Assembly (NCBI RefSeq): GCF_003143515.1
Contig: NZ_CP029343.1
Location: 806,001-870,000 of the forward strand
Direction of reading: 5' to 3'
DNA: 64,000 nucleotides
Source: Massilia oculi
GTDB lineage: Bacteria > Pseudomonadota > Gammaproteobacteria > Burkholderiales > Burkholderiaceae_D
Shown piece after piece: positions 44,725 to 50,721 of the stretch (position 1 is the first letter of the stretch; each line of letters opens with the position of its first letter). The translations under genes and the position numbers were made by a program. The notes beneath the pieces are model-generated. The model had not been told where the DNA came from. It was given only the letters and a program-made list of their open reading frames with translations, and did no database searches.

Positions 44725-45705
44725 CTAACGTTCGCGCAAGAGCTTGAACTGGCGCGCCTGGCGGTGGTGGCCGGCGACCGACTGCCTGATATACCGCGTC
44801 AGCGCGTCGCCGGTGAGCGAGAATGGATACAGGCCGGCCCGGGCCTGCTTTTCGGCGAATCCGGGGCTGGCCTCCATGTTGGCAAAAGCCTGCACCCAGC
44901 GCCGGTAGTCGGCCTCGCGCACGTCCGGCCCCATCCATACGCCGCGGATCACGGGCCAGACCACGTCGTAGCCCTGCTCGCGCGCGGTCTTCACATTTGA
45001 CAGCGCACCCGGCAGCCGCTGTTCGGACAGCACCGCCAGCACCCTCACCCGGCCAGCGCCGGTGTGGAGCAAGGCCTCGGAGGTGTCGCCCGACACCGCC
45101 TGCACGTGGTTTTCCTGCATCGCGATGAACTGCTCGCCGCCGCCCTCGAGGGCGACGAAGCGCATCTTGCGCGGATCGATGCCGGCCATCTGCGCCAGCA
45201 GCGCCATCTTGATCCAGTCCTGGCTGCCGACCGTGCCGGACATGCCGATCAGGACTTTCTTGGGATCGCGCTTCAGGGCGTTCAGCAAATCGTCGAGCGA
45301 CTGCCAGGGCGAATCGGCGCGCACCGCGATCATGCCATAGTCGGCGCCGAAGGCCGCCACCCAGCGCACATCGTCGACGTCGGCGTCGCCGAATTTCCCC
45401 AGCGCGAGATTGAGCACCGAACCGCCGGAAAAGGTGACGAGGGTATTCGCTTCGGCCCGGCGCTGCGACACGATGGTGTGCCAGGCCACGGCGCCCACGC
45501 CACCCGGCAGGTAGCTCAGCTGCAGCTCGGGCGCGCCGGGCTGGCCGTGCAGGGCTTTCTGGGCCAGCTTGCAGGTCAGGTCCATGCCGCCGCCGGGTTT
45601 GGACGGTATCAGGCATTCGGCCTCGCGCGGCTGGGCGCCGCCGGGCGCGGCCAGCGCCAGGGCCAGGATGGCGAGGAAGGTGTGCACGAATCTCATGGGA
45701 CGCAT
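44725..45705 (-). CDS. tctC: TctC-family periplasmic tricarboxylate-binding protein
   Basis: Extracytoplasmic receptor of the Bug/TctC family, 326 residues, signal peptide to about residue 25 (LAILALALAAPGGAQ). It has the family dicarboxylate-binding loops IPSKPGGGMDLTCKLAQKAL and LPGGVGAVAWHTIV, and the later KVLIGMSGTVGSQDWIKMALL. No TctA/TctB membrane genes are present, so it lacks its usual transporter. It is the second gene after the porin (34-nt gap) under a TctD-box promoter, and may work with CitMHS or as a sensor for TctE. Confidence 0.88.
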   Translation of the reverse strand: MRPMRFVHTFLAILALALAAPGGAQPREAECLIPSKPGGGMDLTCKLAQKALHGQPGAPELQLSYLPGGVGAVAWHTIVSQRRAEANTLVTFSGGSVLNLALGKFGDADVDDVRWVAAFGADYGMIAVRADSPWQSLDDLLNALKRDPKKVLIGMSGTVGSQDWIKMALLAQMAGIDPRKMRFVALEGGGEQFIAMQENHVQAVSGDTSEALLHTGAGRVRVLAVLSEQRLPGALSNVKTAREQGYDVVWPVIRGVWMGPDVREADYRRWVQAFANMEASPGFAEKQARAGLYPFSLTGDALTRYIRQSVAGHHRQARQFKLLRER

Positions 45706-45739: not shown

Positions 45740-46813
45740 TCAGAAACGATGCTGCATGCCGGCCGTGATGCCGGTCTGGTTCGAACCGAAACCGGGGTCG
45801 TCGCGCGACAGCCCGACGAGCTGGCCATGCTCGGCCTTCGCATGCGCGGCCGACAGGTAGAGCGTGGTCCGCTTGGACAGCGCCAGCATGCCGCGCACGA
45901 CGAACATCGTCGGGTCGGCGTCTTCCAGCGCCGGGACGTCCTTCGTGTTGACATGATAAATGGCGCCGGTCAGGGTCACGTCATCGATCGTGCGCGAAAT
46001 GCCGCCCCAGTACGTGTCGGCGCGCAGGTCGGCGCTGGCGCGCGCAGCGTCAAGCTTGTAGCCGCGCATGCCGGCGGTATATCGCCACTTGCCGGTCTGA
46101 TAATCGGCCGCCAGATGGTAGGCGGTGGTCTCGTCGCGCGCGGGCACGCCGGCGACGGCGTTGCCATTGATCCGCTCATACGAGGCCATCAGTCCCAGGC
46201 CGCCCTCGCCGAACCACGAGCCGCCCATTGCCAGCTTGCGGCCTTCGGCCAGGCTGCCCGAGCGCTCGCCCAGGCCGATCGTGGCGCCGTAGGTGAAGCC
46301 GCCGCTTTTTCCCGTGTACTTGACCAGGTTGTCGAACTGGGTCGTCATGCCATACTTCGACGGCCCGGTGGCGCTGGCGCCGGTGGCCCAGGAATAATGG
46401 GGGGCGAAGCCCAGCGGATCGAACTTGATCACCAGTTCATAGGTCGTGGTAAACGAGCGGCCGATGACGAGGCGACCGAGCGAACCGTCCAGGCCGACCC
46501 AGGCCTGCCGCTTGAATACGTGGCCGTCGCTTTCGCCGGTATCCATCAGGATGCCGCCTTCGAGCTGCCAGATCGCCTTCAGGCCGCCGCCGAGGTCTTC
46601 GCTGCCGCGAAAGCCCCAGCGCGAGGTGTTCTTGCCGCCCGAAATCACGCGCACGAGGTTGCCACCACCTTTGCCGCCGTCTTCGGCGGCATGGTTGACG
46701 TACTCGACGCCGGCATCGATCAGGCCATAGACCTGCACGTTGCTCTGGGCGTGGGCGGAATGGTTCAGGGAAAGCGCTGCCAGGACGGCGAGCGCGAGGG
46801 CCGACTGCTTCAT
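45740..46813 (-). CDS. outer-membrane porin (Gram-negative porin family)
   Basis: 357-residue general porin of the betaproteobacterial type: signal peptide to about residue 22 (LALAVLAALSLNHSAHA), then QSNVQVYGLIDAGVEYVNHA, SRWGFRGSEDLGGGLKAIWQLE, RQAWVGLDGSLGRLVIGR and the terminal aromatic motif ending in Phe (GMQHRF) needed for assembly. Placed first in an operon with tctC, so it probably admits citrate or related tricarboxylates. GGAGACACC is the ribosome site. Divergent from tctD and controlled through the box at 46857-46890. Confidence 0.93.
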   Translation of the reverse strand: MKQSALALAVLAALSLNHSAHAQSNVQVYGLIDAGVEYVNHAAEDGGKGGGNLVRVISGGKNTSRWGFRGSEDLGGGLKAIWQLEGGILMDTGESDGHVFKRQAWVGLDGSLGRLVIGRSFTTTYELVIKFDPLGFAPHYSWATGASATGPSKYGMTTQFDNLVKYTGKSGGFTYGATIGLGERSGSLAEGRKLAMGGSWFGEGGLGLMASYERINGNAVAGVPARDETTAYHLAADYQTGKWRYTAGMRGYKLDAARASADLRADTYWGGISRTIDDVTLTGAIYHVNTKDVPALEDADPTMFVVRGMLALSKRTTLYLSAAHAKAEHGQLVGLSRDDPGFGSNQTGITAGMQHRF

Positions 46814-46856
46814 GGTGTCTCCGGATTTTGTTATGGTTGTGCTGCTTTATCGCCCG

Positions 46857-46890
46857 ACTATATGCGCGGCCAGCTTTCAGTTAGCTTTCA
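46857..46890 (-). promoter_or_regulatory. TctD-box promoter of the porin-tctC operon
   Basis: Reading toward the porin: TGAAAGCT, AAC, TGAAAGCT, 9 nt, TATAGT. The 8-mers are exact and 11 bp apart, the usual tandem-repeat geometry for OmpR-class regulators, and they stand where a -35 would be. The identical layout occurs before citMHS. TctD, encoded next door, is the obvious candidate binder. Confidence 0.75.
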
Positions 46891-46924
46891 ACGCCCGCCC
46901 TTTCCACCGCCCCGGGATTGCGCT

Positions 46925-46930
46925 TACACT
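46925..46930 (+). promoter_or_regulatory. -10 box next to the tctD start
   Basis: TACACT followed by 6 nt and the tctD ATG; no ribosome site fits between. Suggests a leaderless tctDE message. Confidence 0.4.
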
Positions 46931-46936
46931 GGCGCG

Positions 46937-47623
46937 ATGAGAATCCTGCTAGTTGAAGACCACGTCGAGCTGTCGCACTGGGTGTCGAAGGCGCTGCGCG
47001 ACGCCCATCTGACCGTCGAATGCGCGAGCACCGGCGCCGATGCCGACGCCCTGCTGCACACCCAGGACTACGCGCTGGTGATCCTCGACCTGACCCTGCC
47101 GCGCATGGACGGCCTGGACGTGCTGCGCCGCCTGCGCGCCCGCGGCGGCGCGCGCGCAAACACGCCGGTGCTGATCCTGACCGCACGCGGCGGCCTGGAA
47201 GACAAGGTGCAGGGACTGAACCTGGGCGCCGACGACTACCTGCCCAAGCCGTTCGAGCTGGCCGAACTCGAAGCGCGCGTCAAGGCGCTGCTGCGCCGGC
47301 GCAGCGGCAACGAGGCGCTGGTGCACCGCTGCGGCCAGCTCGCCTTCGACACGGTCTCGCGCATGTTCTCCTATTGCGGCGAGCCGCTGGCGCTGACGCC
47401 GCGCGAGCACGCGGTGCTCGAGGCGCTGATCGCCAGACCGGGCCGCGCGCTGTCGAAGGAAAAGCTGTTCCAGGAAGTGTTCGCCCTGAGCGACGACGCC
47501 AATCTCGACGCCATCGAGCTGTACATCCACCGCATCCGCAAGAAGCTCGAGCGCCCGGGCGGCGACGCCGCCATCGTCACCCTGCGCGGCATCGGCTACC
47601 TGATGCAGGAAAAAGCCGGTTAA
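46937..47623 (+). CDS. tctD: TctD response regulator
   Basis: OmpR-class regulator of 228 residues. Receiver: acidic pair in LLVEDHVEL, phospho-acceptor Asp51 (LVILDLTLPRMDG), Lys in ILTARGGLEDKVQGLNLGADDYLPKPF. C-terminal winged helix: LTPREHAVLEALIARPGRALSKEKLF, then AIELYIHRIRKKLE and TLRGIGYLM. The partner kinase starts 4 nt after the stop. Named by its context with tctE, tctC, porin and citMHS, a known arrangement for tricarboxylate control. Probably starts from a -10 box only 6 nt upstream. Confidence 0.93.
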   Translation: MRILLVEDHVELSHWVSKALRDAHLTVECASTGADADALLHTQDYALVILDLTLPRMDGLDVLRRLRARGGARANTPVLILTARGGLEDKVQGLNLGADDYLPKPFELAELEARVKALLRRRSGNEALVHRCGQLAFDTVSRMFSYCGEPLALTPREHAVLEALIARPGRALSKEKLFQEVFALSDDANLDAIELYIHRIRKKLERPGGDAAIVTLRGIGYLMQEKAG

Positions 47624-47627
47624 GGCC

Positions 47628-49055
47628 ATGGAGCGCGAGTCCACGCCGCTCGGCAGCCTGCGCCAGCAGCTGCTGCGCTGGCTGATCCTGCCGCTGGTGG
47701 CGCTGGTCGCGCTCAATGCCGTGTCGCTGTACCGCGACGCGCTGGAAGCGGCCGACGTGGCCTACGACCGCTCGCTGCTGTCGTCCACGCGCGCGCTGGC
47801 CGAGCGCGTGACAGTCAGGGACGGCAAGGTGGTCGCCAACGTCCCATATGTGGCGCTGGACAGTTTCGAGACCGATACGCTGGGCCGCATCTACTACAAG
47901 GTCACCGGCCTCGAAGGCGAGACCGTCAGCGGCTATGACGACCTGCCGCCGGTCCCGGCCGACGTGCCGCGCAGCGACCTGTATCCGGCCCTGGTGCGCT
48001 TCTACCACGCCAGCTACAACGGCGAACCGGTGCGCATCGCGGCCCTGCTGCAGCCGGTCTACGACGATTCGATGCGCGGCATCGCCCTGATCCAGGTCGG
48101 CGAGACGCTCGACGCCCGCAACGCCCTGTCGCGCGACATCCTGCTCAACACCCTGTGGCGCCAGGCCTTGCTGGTGCTGGCGGTGGCGGCGCTGGTGTGG
48201 TTCGCGGTGCGCCTGGTGCTGCGCCCCCTGATGCGCCTGAAGAACGAGGTCGAGACGCGCCCGCTGTCCGACCTGTCGACCATCGACCAGGCCCTGGTGC
48301 ACAAGGAAGTGCGGCCGCTGGTGGCGGCCATGAACGGCACCATGGCGCGCATGCAGGACCTGATCGCCAGCCAGCGCCGCTTCATCGCCGACGCCTCGCA
48401 CCAGCTGCGCACCCCGCTCGCGGTGCTCAAGACCCAGGCCGCGCTGGCCCTGCGCGAAGACGATCCGGCGGCAATGCGCGCCATCGTCGCCTCGATTGCC
48501 GGCACCACCGACTCGGCCATCCACCTGGCCAACCGCCTGCTGGTGCTGGCGCGCATCGAGCATGGCGGCGGCGGCGAAGCGGCGCAGCCGGTGGCGCTGG
48601 CAACCATTGCGCGCCAGGTGGGCCTGGAACTGGCCCTGCCTGCGGTGCAGAACGGCATCGACCTGGCGCTCGAAGCCGAGGCCGACGCCGACACCACCGT
48701 CGTCGGCCGGGAGTTGCTGCTGCACGAACTGGTGGCGAACCTGGTCGACAACGCGATCCGCTACACCCCGGCGGGCGGCAGCGTGCTGCTGTGGGTGGGG
48801 CGGCGCGACGCTCGTGTCGTGCTGGCGGTGAGCGATAGCGGCCCCGGCATCCAGGACGCCGAGATCGACAAGGTGGTCATGCCCTTCTACCGCGCCCAGG
48901 CCACGCTGGAAGCCAATCCCGGCGGCACCGGACTGGGACTGGCGATCGTGCGCGACATCGCCACGCTGCATGGCGCCGCCCTGGCGCTCGGGCGGGCGGA
49001 TGCCGGCGGCCTGGAAGTCCAGGTCAGCTTCGATGCGCCGCGCGCTGAAAGCTGA
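47628..49055 (+). CDS. tctE: TctE sensor histidine kinase
   Basis: 475 residues. First membrane segment at about 20-36 (LLRWLILPLVALVALNAVSLY), a periplasmic sensor (about 40-160, DUF/2CSK_N type), second segment near 175-195 (ALLVLAVAALVWFAVRLVL). Then a HAMP-like linker and the H-box FIADASHQLRTPLAVLKTQ, N-box VDNAIRYTPAGG and G-boxes DSGPGIQ and GGTGLGLAIVRDI. Citrate or another tricarboxylate is the likely signal, by family. Paired with TctD. Confidence 0.93.
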   Translation: MERESTPLGSLRQQLLRWLILPLVALVALNAVSLYRDALEAADVAYDRSLLSSTRALAERVTVRDGKVVANVPYVALDSFETDTLGRIYYKVTGLEGETVSGYDDLPPVPADVPRSDLYPALVRFYHASYNGEPVRIAALLQPVYDDSMRGIALIQVGETLDARNALSRDILLNTLWRQALLVLAVAALVWFAVRLVLRPLMRLKNEVETRPLSDLSTIDQALVHKEVRPLVAAMNGTMARMQDLIASQRRFIADASHQLRTPLAVLKTQAALALREDDPAAMRAIVASIAGTTDSAIHLANRLLVLARIEHGGGGEAAQPVALATIARQVGLELALPAVQNGIDLALEAEADADTTVVGRELLLHELVANLVDNAIRYTPAGGSVLLWVGRRDARVVLAVSDSGPGIQDAEIDKVVMPFYRAQATLEANPGGTGLGLAIVRDIATLHGAALALGRADAGGLEVQVSFDAPRAES

Positions 49056-49079
49056 TTGAAAGCTAGCGCGGCCTATAGT
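49046..49079 (+). promoter_or_regulatory. TctD-box promoter upstream of citMHS
   Basis: TGAAAGCT, GAT, TGAAAGCT, 9 nt, TATAGT: the same 8-mers, 11-bp pitch and 9-nt gap to the -10 as before the porin gene. The first repeat overlaps the last codons of tctE. Predicts activation of citMHS by TctD. Confidence 0.75.
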
Positions 49080-49117
49080 TGGCGAAAACGGGGAACCACC
49101 CCATTCACGACAACGAT

Positions 49118-49205
49118 CGGAGACATCATGAAGCAGCCGGCTTTCGCGCGCGCCGCGCAGTCATACCTTCCTGCCACGCCATTCCCTACCTATAGCGGAG
49201 CATGA
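49118..49205 (+). pseudogene. short leader frame before citMHS, apparent 5' remnant of a porin gene
   Basis: A 25-residue frame (ATG 49128, TGA 49203-49205) with CGGAG just upstream. From the ribosome site through codon 9 it matches the start of the porin gene at about 32 of 37 bases by my hand alignment (both begin MKQ, then Ala/Phe/Leu-rich). After that the similarity stops. It ends 1 nt before the citMHS ATG. It may be a porin remnant now serving as a translated leader. Confidence 0.6.
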
Positions 49206-49206
49206 C

Positions 49207-50721
49207 ATGCTGACCATCCTCGCCTATTCGATGGTCGTCGTCTTCATGTTCCTGATCATGACCAAGCGCCTGCCGGCGCTGGTCGCGCTGATCGTCGTGC
49301 CGATCGTCTTCGGCCTGATCGGCGGCTTCGGCGCCGGCCTCGGACCGATGATGCTGGAAGGGATCCGCTCGCTGGCCCCGACCGGCGTCATGCTGATGTT
49401 CGCCATCCTGTATTTCGGCATCATGATCGATGCCGGCCTGTTCGACCCGATCGTGCGGATCATCCTGAAACTGGTGCAGGGCGACCCGATGAAGATCGTG
49501 GTCGGCACTGCGGCGCTGGCGATGTTCATCTCGCTCGACGGCGACGGCGCCACCACTTATATGATCACCGTGTCGGCCATGCTGCCGCTGTACATGCGCC
49601 TGGGGATGAGCCGCCTGACGATGGCCTGCGTGATCATGCTGGCCGGCGGCGTGATGAACATCCTGCCCTGGGGCGGCCCGACGGCGCGCGCCGCCACTGC
49701 GCTCGGCGTGGACGTGAGCGACATCTTCGTGCCGATGATCCCGGCGATGGCGGTGACCGCCGCGTGGGTGATGTTCGTGGCCTGGGTACTGGGCATGCGC
49801 GAACGCAAGCGCCTGGGCACCGTGAGCCTGCCGGGACAGTCAAGCGTCAAGAAAATGGCCCCGGTGGCCAGTCTGCAGCCGGCCTTTCCGGAACTCGCGG
49901 TGGCCGGCGCCATGAACGGCACCACCGGCCAGTGGAGCGCCGCGCCGGCCGCCGCTGCGCACGGAGGCAATGTGCGCGCCTTCGCCGCCGGCCGTATCGA
50001 AGCGGATGCCGGCACCGCGGCCACGGTCGGATCGGGCGGTTCGGGCGGTGGCGACGAACCACCGGCCGGCGTGTCCTCGCCGGATACCGCGCGCCCCGGG
50101 CTGATCTGGGTGAACTTCCTGCTGACCGTCACGCTGCTGGTGCTGCTGGTGCTGGGCGCCCTGCCGCTGCCGGTGCTGTTCATGATCTTCTTCGCGATCG
50201 CCATCACCGTGAACTATCCGGGCCTGGAAGCGCAAAAGGCGCGCATCGAGGCGCATGCGGCGAATGTGCTGCCGGTGGTGTCGCTGATCTTCGCGGCCGG
50301 CATCTTCGTCGGCATCCTGCAGGGCACGAAAATGGTCGACGCCATCGCCCTGAGCGTGATCGCGGCGGTGCCGGAATGGATGGGCCCCTATCTCGCGATC
50401 GTCACCGGCCTGCTGAGCATCCCGTTCACCTTCTTCATCTCCAACGACGCCTTTTATTTCGGCGTGGTGCCGGTGCTGGCCAAGGCGGCCGAGGTGTATG
50501 GCATCACGGCGGCGGAGATCGGCCGCGCCTCGGTCATCGGGCAGCCGGTCCACCTGCTCAGCCCCCTGGTCGCCTCGACTTACCTGCTGGTCGGCATGTG
50601 CAAGGTCGAGTTCGGCGACCACCAGCGCTACACCCTGATCTGGTCGATCTCGGCCTCGCTGGTGATGCTGGTCGCGGCCGTGATCTTCGGCGTGGTGCCG
50701 CTGATGGGGTCAGGCGCCTGA
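49207..50721 (+). CDS. citMHS: CitMHS-family citrate transporter
   Basis: Secondary transporter for metal-citrate or citrate with protons, 504 residues. About eleven membrane segments. Hallmarks are PTGVMLMFAILYFGIMIDAGLFDP, ISLDGDGATTYMIT, and the second-half IPFTFFISNDAFYFGVVPVLAKAAEVYGI with IGQPVHLLSPLVASTYLLVG. A central loop (about residues 205-295) is long, Ala/Gly/Ser-rich and probably disordered. GGAG 6 nt upstream supports this ATG. It follows tctE in the same direction and has its own TctD-type promoter. Confidence 0.92.
   Translation: MLTILAYSMVVVFMFLIMTKRLPALVALIVVPIVFGLIGGFGAGLGPMMLEGIRSLAPTGVMLMFAILYFGIMIDAGLFDPIVRIILKLVQGDPMKIVVGTAALAMFISLDGDGATTYMITVSAMLPLYMRLGMSRLTMACVIMLAGGVMNILPWGGPTARAATALGVDVSDIFVPMIPAMAVTAAWVMFVAWVLGMRERKRLGTVSLPGQSSVKKMAPVASLQPAFPELAVAGAMNGTTGQWSAAPAAAAHGGNVRAFAAGRIEADAGTAATVGSGGSGGGDEPPAGVSSPDTARPGLIWVNFLLTVTLLVLLVLGALPLPVLFMIFFAIAITVNYPGLEAQKARIEAHAANVLPVVSLIFAAGIFVGILQGTKMVDAIALSVIAAVPEWMGPYLAIVTGLLSIPFTFFISNDAFYFGVVPVLAKAAEVYGITAAEIGRASVIGQPVHLLSPLVASTYLLVGMCKVEFGDHQRYTLIWSISASLVMLVAAVIFGVVPLMGSGA

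Follow-up and report, generated by a model that had tools for sequence, protein, structure and literature searches.

Massilia oculi DNA carries a tctD-tctE two-component system between two transport units on opposite strands, and the same pair of short direct repeats stands ahead of both units. Does a single regulator, TctD, read the two sites, and where did the second one come from? We analysed a stretch of 64,000 nucleotides, referred to below as the window, and compared it with related genomes. We consider it highly probable that the TGAAAG pair is the TctD operator, that citrate is sensed by TctE, probably together with TctC, that the porin, TctC and CitMHS are induced together, and that the citMHS box was copied from the porin promoter.

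Gene content and two predicted TctD sites

The minus strand of the locus carries a gene for an outer-membrane porin (45740..46813; Pfam Porin_4, 1e-42), the first of a porin-tctC unit, and a gene for a tctC-type (Bug) periplasmic tricarboxylate receptor (44725..45681; Pfam TctC, 1e-15). The plus strand carries tctD (46937..47623), encoding an OmpR/PhoB-type response regulator with Response_reg and Trans_reg_C domains, tctE (47628..49055), encoding a sensor kinase with 2CSK_N, HisKA and HATPase_c domains, and citMHS (49207..50721), encoding a citrate:proton symporter. The last is assigned to CitMHS by a TIGR00784 score of 599 bits, above the cut-off of 260; the match is split in two, and the middle of the protein (window 49840-50110) is a long Ala/Gly/Pro-rich stretch. 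The assignment to TctD-TctE is based on an OmpR-type regulator and a 2CSK_N kinase encoded beside tctC, as at 37 of 37 loci of the genus, and on an operator in common with the founding tctC-tctD spacer of Salmonella. TctD is the best NCBIfam model for the regulator, although its score of 279 bits does not reach the curated equivalog cut-off of 337 bits.

Two features of related systems were not found here. A search by TctA revealed no tctA accompanying tctC at the locus, as a TctABC (TTT) transporter would require, the only TctA of the genome being located 4.8 Mb away (G000:C1:5686672-5687928). OpdH belongs to the OprD family, and the porin in the window matches Porin_4 and Porin_1 only, and so does not indicate an OpdH-type operon.

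Both 34-nt sites of the sequence-only reading were recovered with zero mismatches, at 46857..46890 on the minus strand before the porin and at 49046..49079 on the plus strand before citMHS. Each predicted TctD site comprises two copies of TGAAAGCT (46883-46890 and 46872-46879 on the porin side; 49046-49053 and 49057-49064 on the citMHS side; half-sites rechecked) and a TATAGT -10 box (46857-46862 and 49074-49079, respectively), and both tctD and tctE are located between them, as had been noted. The last 10 nt of tctE, including the stop codon, are overlapped by the first repeat of the citMHS-side site. The whole-genome search that the same reading had proposed returned these two sites as the sole matches with up to three mismatches in 5,844,653 bases; the reversed pattern gave 0 matches. 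In 100 dinucleotide shuffles, the chance expectation for the sites was 0, even allowing three mismatches. The half-sites alone, with up to three mismatches, gave 13 matches in the genome versus 9 for the reversed control, so that half-site matches other than the two in the window look like background.

Placing the -10 box at -12 to -7 puts the repeats at about -40 to -22. That they replace the -35 box is borne out by a promoter scan, which predicted 0 sigma-70-like promoters in 46780-49300, and by the lack of a usable -35, the best TTGACA match at a spacing of 15-19 nt being 3/6. The two direct repeats at an 11-bp pitch, the fixed distance to the -10 box and the missing -35 correspond to an activator site of the PhoB/OmpR type. 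The pho box of PhoB also consists of two head-to-tail half-sites with an 11-bp pitch, which replace the -35 box and end about 10 nt before the -10; the layout is the same, whereas the pho half-site is TGTCA and that found here is TGAAAG. As a control on the distance to the -10 box, the pattern with one base added to the last spacer matched in 0 of 62 Massilia genomes and in 2 of 392 genomes of the family (G270 and G339), the G270 match being a genuine box with altered spacing. Other -10 forms or distances are present in some other genera.

We propose that phosphorylated TctD binds the two half-sites head to tail in place of the -35 box and assists RNA polymerase at the TATAGT -10, in the manner of PhoB at the pho box. 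TctE would sense citrate, probably via the citrate-loaded periplasmic receptor TctC, and activation of both promoters by TctD would result in joint induction of outer-membrane entry (porin), the receptor (TctC) and inner-membrane uptake (CitMHS).

Activation of a porin-tctCBA operon by TctD is already known, according to the available parts of PMC4513871 and PMC10865840; the former describes TctD as an activator of opdH-tctCBA in P. aeruginosa. That regulon, as far as the accessible text describes it (PMC4513871), likewise combines a two-component system with an activated porin-tct operon and is small, while the locus studied here has a Porin_4-type porin, no TctA and citMHS as the transporter. 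In Salmonella, tctCBA requires tctD, according to an excerpt of a review (PMC5812351). Its tctD and tctC are likewise divergent, with TGAAAG-N5-TGAAAG between them, but the system serves a TTT transporter, AACAAT occupies the position of the -10, and TctD is 52% identical. In the literature searched, no paper combining TctD with CitMHS was found, nor one combining Massilia, citrate and TctE. The TGAAAG box was not found in print by this search of text, and the TctD logo published as Fig. 3B may display these repeats as well; PMC3266929 was rejected as a source of a printed box, the strings there being primers and strain names. With this motif, any genome can be scanned for a candidate TctD operator, and citMHS is a predicted TctD target.

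Conservation in Massilia and the role of TctC

TctE orthologues (at least 76% identity, next-best matches at most 41%) were found in 37 of 62 Massilia genomes, and CitMHS in 18 of them. A scan with up to 4 mismatches of 16, limited to the spacer upstream of tctD and to regions upstream of citMHS, revealed TGAAAG-N5-TGAAAG ahead of the porin or tctC at 37/37 tctDE loci and ahead of 18/18 citMHS genes. The expectation that the motif precedes transport genes in relatives was thus confirmed, and its absence from orthologous porin and citMHS genes, named beforehand as evidence against a regulon, was not observed within the genus. The boxes point at the transport gene, and in these 37 spacers and 18 citMHS regions the best or equal-best site has TGAAAG twice with an 11-bp pitch. 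At the one locus without a porin (G042), the box points at tctC. Three of the 18 citMHS genes (in G016, G034 and G019) are located away from tctDE and yet carry the box.

The -10 box in the genus is mostly TATAGT, and otherwise TATCCT, TATGCT or TACACT. The spacers and the bases 3' of the second TGAAAG vary among sites, and the 40 bases upstream of the box are hardly conserved, averaging 0.16 bits per column in 48 distinct sites, a measure that is partly set by the search pattern and was used for the flanks only. The exact motif has seven matches in a collection of 84,980 species, which may omit records very close to the window's genome; all are in Massilia, three before a porin and four before citMHS. 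One of these records, M. timonae CCUG 45783, encodes TctD and CitMHS 99% and 94% identical to those of the window. An exact half-site pair in G044 was rejected, since it had no -10 at the right distance and none of the five proteins of the window was matched nearby. Altogether, a predicted TctD operator common to porin-tctC and citMHS is well supported by these comparisons.

The gene content of the 37 loci varies in the transporter. TctC is encoded at all 37 and a porin at 36, and a TctA match was found at none of them. An ABC set (binding protein, permease and ATPase, 76-88% identical to a domain-checked set of a relative from another genus) is present at 21 loci and citMHS at 15, none having both; the G019 locus has neither within the stretch that its contig allows. 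The two parts of citrate uptake appear to evolve differently: the sensing set (TctD, TctE, TctC and the box) is retained, whereas the membrane transporter is exchanged, being TctAB in Salmonella and Serratia and elsewhere the ABC system or CitMHS.

What does TctC do at loci without TctA? Among the 21 ABC-type genomes, 17 have tctC without TctA (E 1e-30), and in them TctC therefore travels with TctDE rather than with TctA. In Bordetella, the response to citrate through BctDE depends on citrate-bound BctC, according to the available part of a review (PMC5812351); the same text describes bctDE/bctCBA as likewise having a TctC-type receptor near the two-component system, and a complete TTT transporter distinguishes it from the locus in the window. 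The retention of TctC in ABC-type genomes and the Bordetella finding lead us to prefer, with some confidence, a role for TctC as a co-sensor with TctE. Alternatively, TctC could be no co-sensor but the receptor of a TctAB encoded elsewhere, the porin-tctC unit being half of a split TTT transporter. Such an arrangement would agree with the single TctA of the window's genome, at 5.69 Mb, and with the presence of TctA in 15/15 citMHS-type genomes. We regard it as possible but rather unlikely, since no TctD box within three mismatches was found near that TctA and since most ABC-type genomes keep tctC without TctA.

Besides the preferred co-sensing role, an association of TctC with CitMHS should be mentioned: in G016 (L079) and G034 (L083), a divergent tctC-type gene adjoins the unlinked citMHS, showing that CitMHS and TctC can be paired away from tctDE.

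Co-occurrence of the box with TctE beyond the genus

The pattern TGAAAG-N5-TGAAAG-N11-TATNNT was found in 174 of 392 genomes of the family, in 14 of 44 genera, and one match to the reversed control was seen (G367). With TctE counted as present at E 1e-100 or better, 172 genomes have both the box with its -10 and TctE, 2 the box only (G062 and G376), 47 TctE only and 171 neither. At 14 of the 47 TctE-only loci that were examined, the half-site pair is exact in 11 and has one mismatch in 2, while one (G224) has none within one mismatch; the 13 boxes escaped the pattern owing to a different -10, a different distance to it or a single changed base. A single genus, g26, accounts for 26 of the other 33 TctE-only genomes; TctE matches there at E 1e-170 or better, no genome matched the box pattern, and this genus may rely on a different box or a different -10.

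Fifty family sites were inspected, comprising 30 from the search and 20 chosen by hand and rich in second sites; of these 50, 41 lie ahead of tctC or porin-tctC, 6 ahead of citMHS and 3 ahead of neither. Sites in G085 (before a Peripla_BP_6 protein) and in G062 were judged to be background. A box-like site with TATCCT before a methyl-accepting chemotaxis protein in G228 (L135) is a single case and probably background as well. In G366, a second TGAAAG-N5-TGAAAG pair was observed between the porin and tctC (L136:9215-9248, plus strand), which is perhaps an older tctC promoter kept after insertion of the porin.

Outside the family, the pair is present in the tctC-tctD spacers of Salmonella (TGAAAGGGAATTGAAAGG) and Serratia (TGAAAGGTAAATGAAAGG). 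A class-wide TctE search at 1e-90 retrieved 2 of 369 genomes, the window's own and G542, a member of another family, which also has the pair between tctC and tctD. In a comparison of recognition helices, the G542 TctD departs at the H of IELYIHR, and the box is still present. The pair is absent from the tctC-tctD spacer of Cupriavidus metallidurans (megaplasmid L167), whose TctD relative is 50% identical. In its place, CGACAGC repeats with an 11-bp pitch are visible by eye, which suggests a diverged operator.

The box could in principle be read by an OmpR-class regulator other than TctD. The genome offers many response regulators, with 133 matches to the TctD model when receiver-only ones are counted. 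Nevertheless, the box tracks TctE across the 392 genomes and, in genomes ranging from Salmonella to Massilia, lies in the gap separating tctD from the adjacent gene, and we consider another reader improbable.

Origin of the citMHS promoter

The sequence-only reading had taken identical 8-mers with different spacers as a sign of separately selected sites. This was half right: the half-sites are indeed kept, but the second site arose by promoter duplication. A blastn comparison, box included, aligned a minus-strand segment at 46786..46897, comprising the box, -10, leader, Shine-Dalgarno sequence and first nine porin codons, with 49039..49155 on the plus strand (71% identity over 118 bp, E 2e-12). 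As the porin-side promoter is the ancestor of the citMHS-side copy, the two sites in the window do not count as two independent samples.

The similarity extends beyond the regulatory elements. The citMHS leader (49080-49206), with the box and -10 excluded, has the porin leader as its sole significant non-self match in the 64 kb (E 7.7e-8, followed by a match at 0.25). Of 230 ORF starts in the window scored against this leader, leaving aside that of citMHS, the porin start reaches 65 and the runner-up 36. In the loci compared, matches at E 1e-3 or better are porin-side or citMHS-side leaders and a G019 copy, as far as they could be placed. Outside the box, the porin and citMHS leaders are more alike than in any of 300 dinucleotide shuffles for 15 of 17 testable genomes, with narrow margins in G003 (34 versus 33) and G049 (43 versus 37); for G016 and G034 this is not so, and G042 has no porin to compare. 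The alignment takes in the box in 9 of 11 genomes, where it begins 0-9 nt ahead of the box, and is confined to the leader in L048 and L050. The flanks upstream of the two copies have no clear similarity, the score of the window's genome being reached by 10 of 300 shuffles. By sequence comparison, the citMHS promoter (box, -10, leader and first codons) is a descendant of the porin promoter. A copy of about 115 bp, which begins about 7 bp ahead of the box and reaches into the first nine codons of the porin, would have landed between tctE and citMHS, and a small ORF ending beside the citMHS start would be what is left of the porin start.

Such an ORF, a fossil of the porin start, is present at 49128..49205 on the plus strand; it has 25 codons, GGAG ahead of its ATG and a stop codon separated by 1 nt from the citMHS start. 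The porin N-terminal sequence is MKQSALALAVLAAL, and the predicted leader ORF product is MKQPAFARAVLATP in near relatives, MKQPAFARAAQSYLP in the window and MKKSALALAVLAALFPE in G019. In 5/5 of the closest genomes, including the window's, the ORF has 21-25 codons, GGAG is kept and the stop lies 1 nt before the citMHS start; the 12 additional nucleotides in the window's ORF are in frame. In the G008 group, the ORF stops 156-157 nt ahead of citMHS, and no leader ORF of at least 12 codons remains in G042 and G003.

Three copies of the promoter occur in G019, one at the porin, one after tctE and one before the unlinked citMHS, and they are mutually 80-85% identical over 159-238 bp. In the copy after tctE (L057:9320-10075), the porin start continues in frame into a second TctC-family receptor (Pfam 3e-15), inside which the contig ends. 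We tentatively suggest that the porin promoter segment, from the left edge of the box, is a portable cassette copied more than once, which would have recruited citMHS, and in G019 also the second TctC-type receptor, into one citrate circuit, with the leftover porin start becoming a leader ORF whose translation might be coupled to that of citMHS.

The two sites could instead have evolved separately for TctD, the likeness of the leaders being the common look of a Shine-Dalgarno sequence and signal-peptide-like codons. The half-sites are kept while the spacers differ, as this would predict, and a clear porin-like leader is missing from the box-bearing citMHS promoters of G016, G034, G369, G176, G366 and G395, so that another origin of the citMHS box does occur elsewhere. 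For the window, separate evolution seems very unlikely in view of the leader match that persists without the box and -10, the isolated score of the porin start and the 80-85% identity among the G019 copies.

Duplication thus being preferred for the window, it may not have been the event that first brought citMHS into the regulon. Outside the genus, the box-bearing citMHS promoters of G369, G176, G366 and G395 lack a clear copy of the porin leader of the same genome, and the citMHS leaders of G016 and G366 are alike across genera (score 125, 0/300 shuffles). Their resemblance indicates that an older box-bearing citMHS promoter exists, which the window's copy may have replaced. That the citMHS-side site is incidental to the end of tctE, by chance or coding constraint, is suggested by the overlap of the first repeat with the tctE stop and can be practically dismissed, as the tctE match elsewhere (e.g., in G049, G008 and G003) ends before the box begins and unlinked citMHS genes carry the box.

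In the Cit+ lineage of the E. coli long-term experiment, a duplication brings a promoter to citT and the transporter gains expression, according to the available part of PMC4718724. The locus studied here looks like a natural counterpart of this laboratory promoter capture, a citrate transporter likewise having gained a promoter by duplication and been wired into an existing circuit; it differs in being natural and genus-wide, in the predicted TctD (citrate-response) box of the promoter and in the fossil ORF.

In a CitMHS tree of linked and unlinked copies, 6 of 21 inner branches are open. The unlinked citMHS of G395 (L128) lies beside a tctC 73% identical to the window's, while the tctC of its own tct locus is 63% identical, and transfer of a tctC-citMHS unit is possible.
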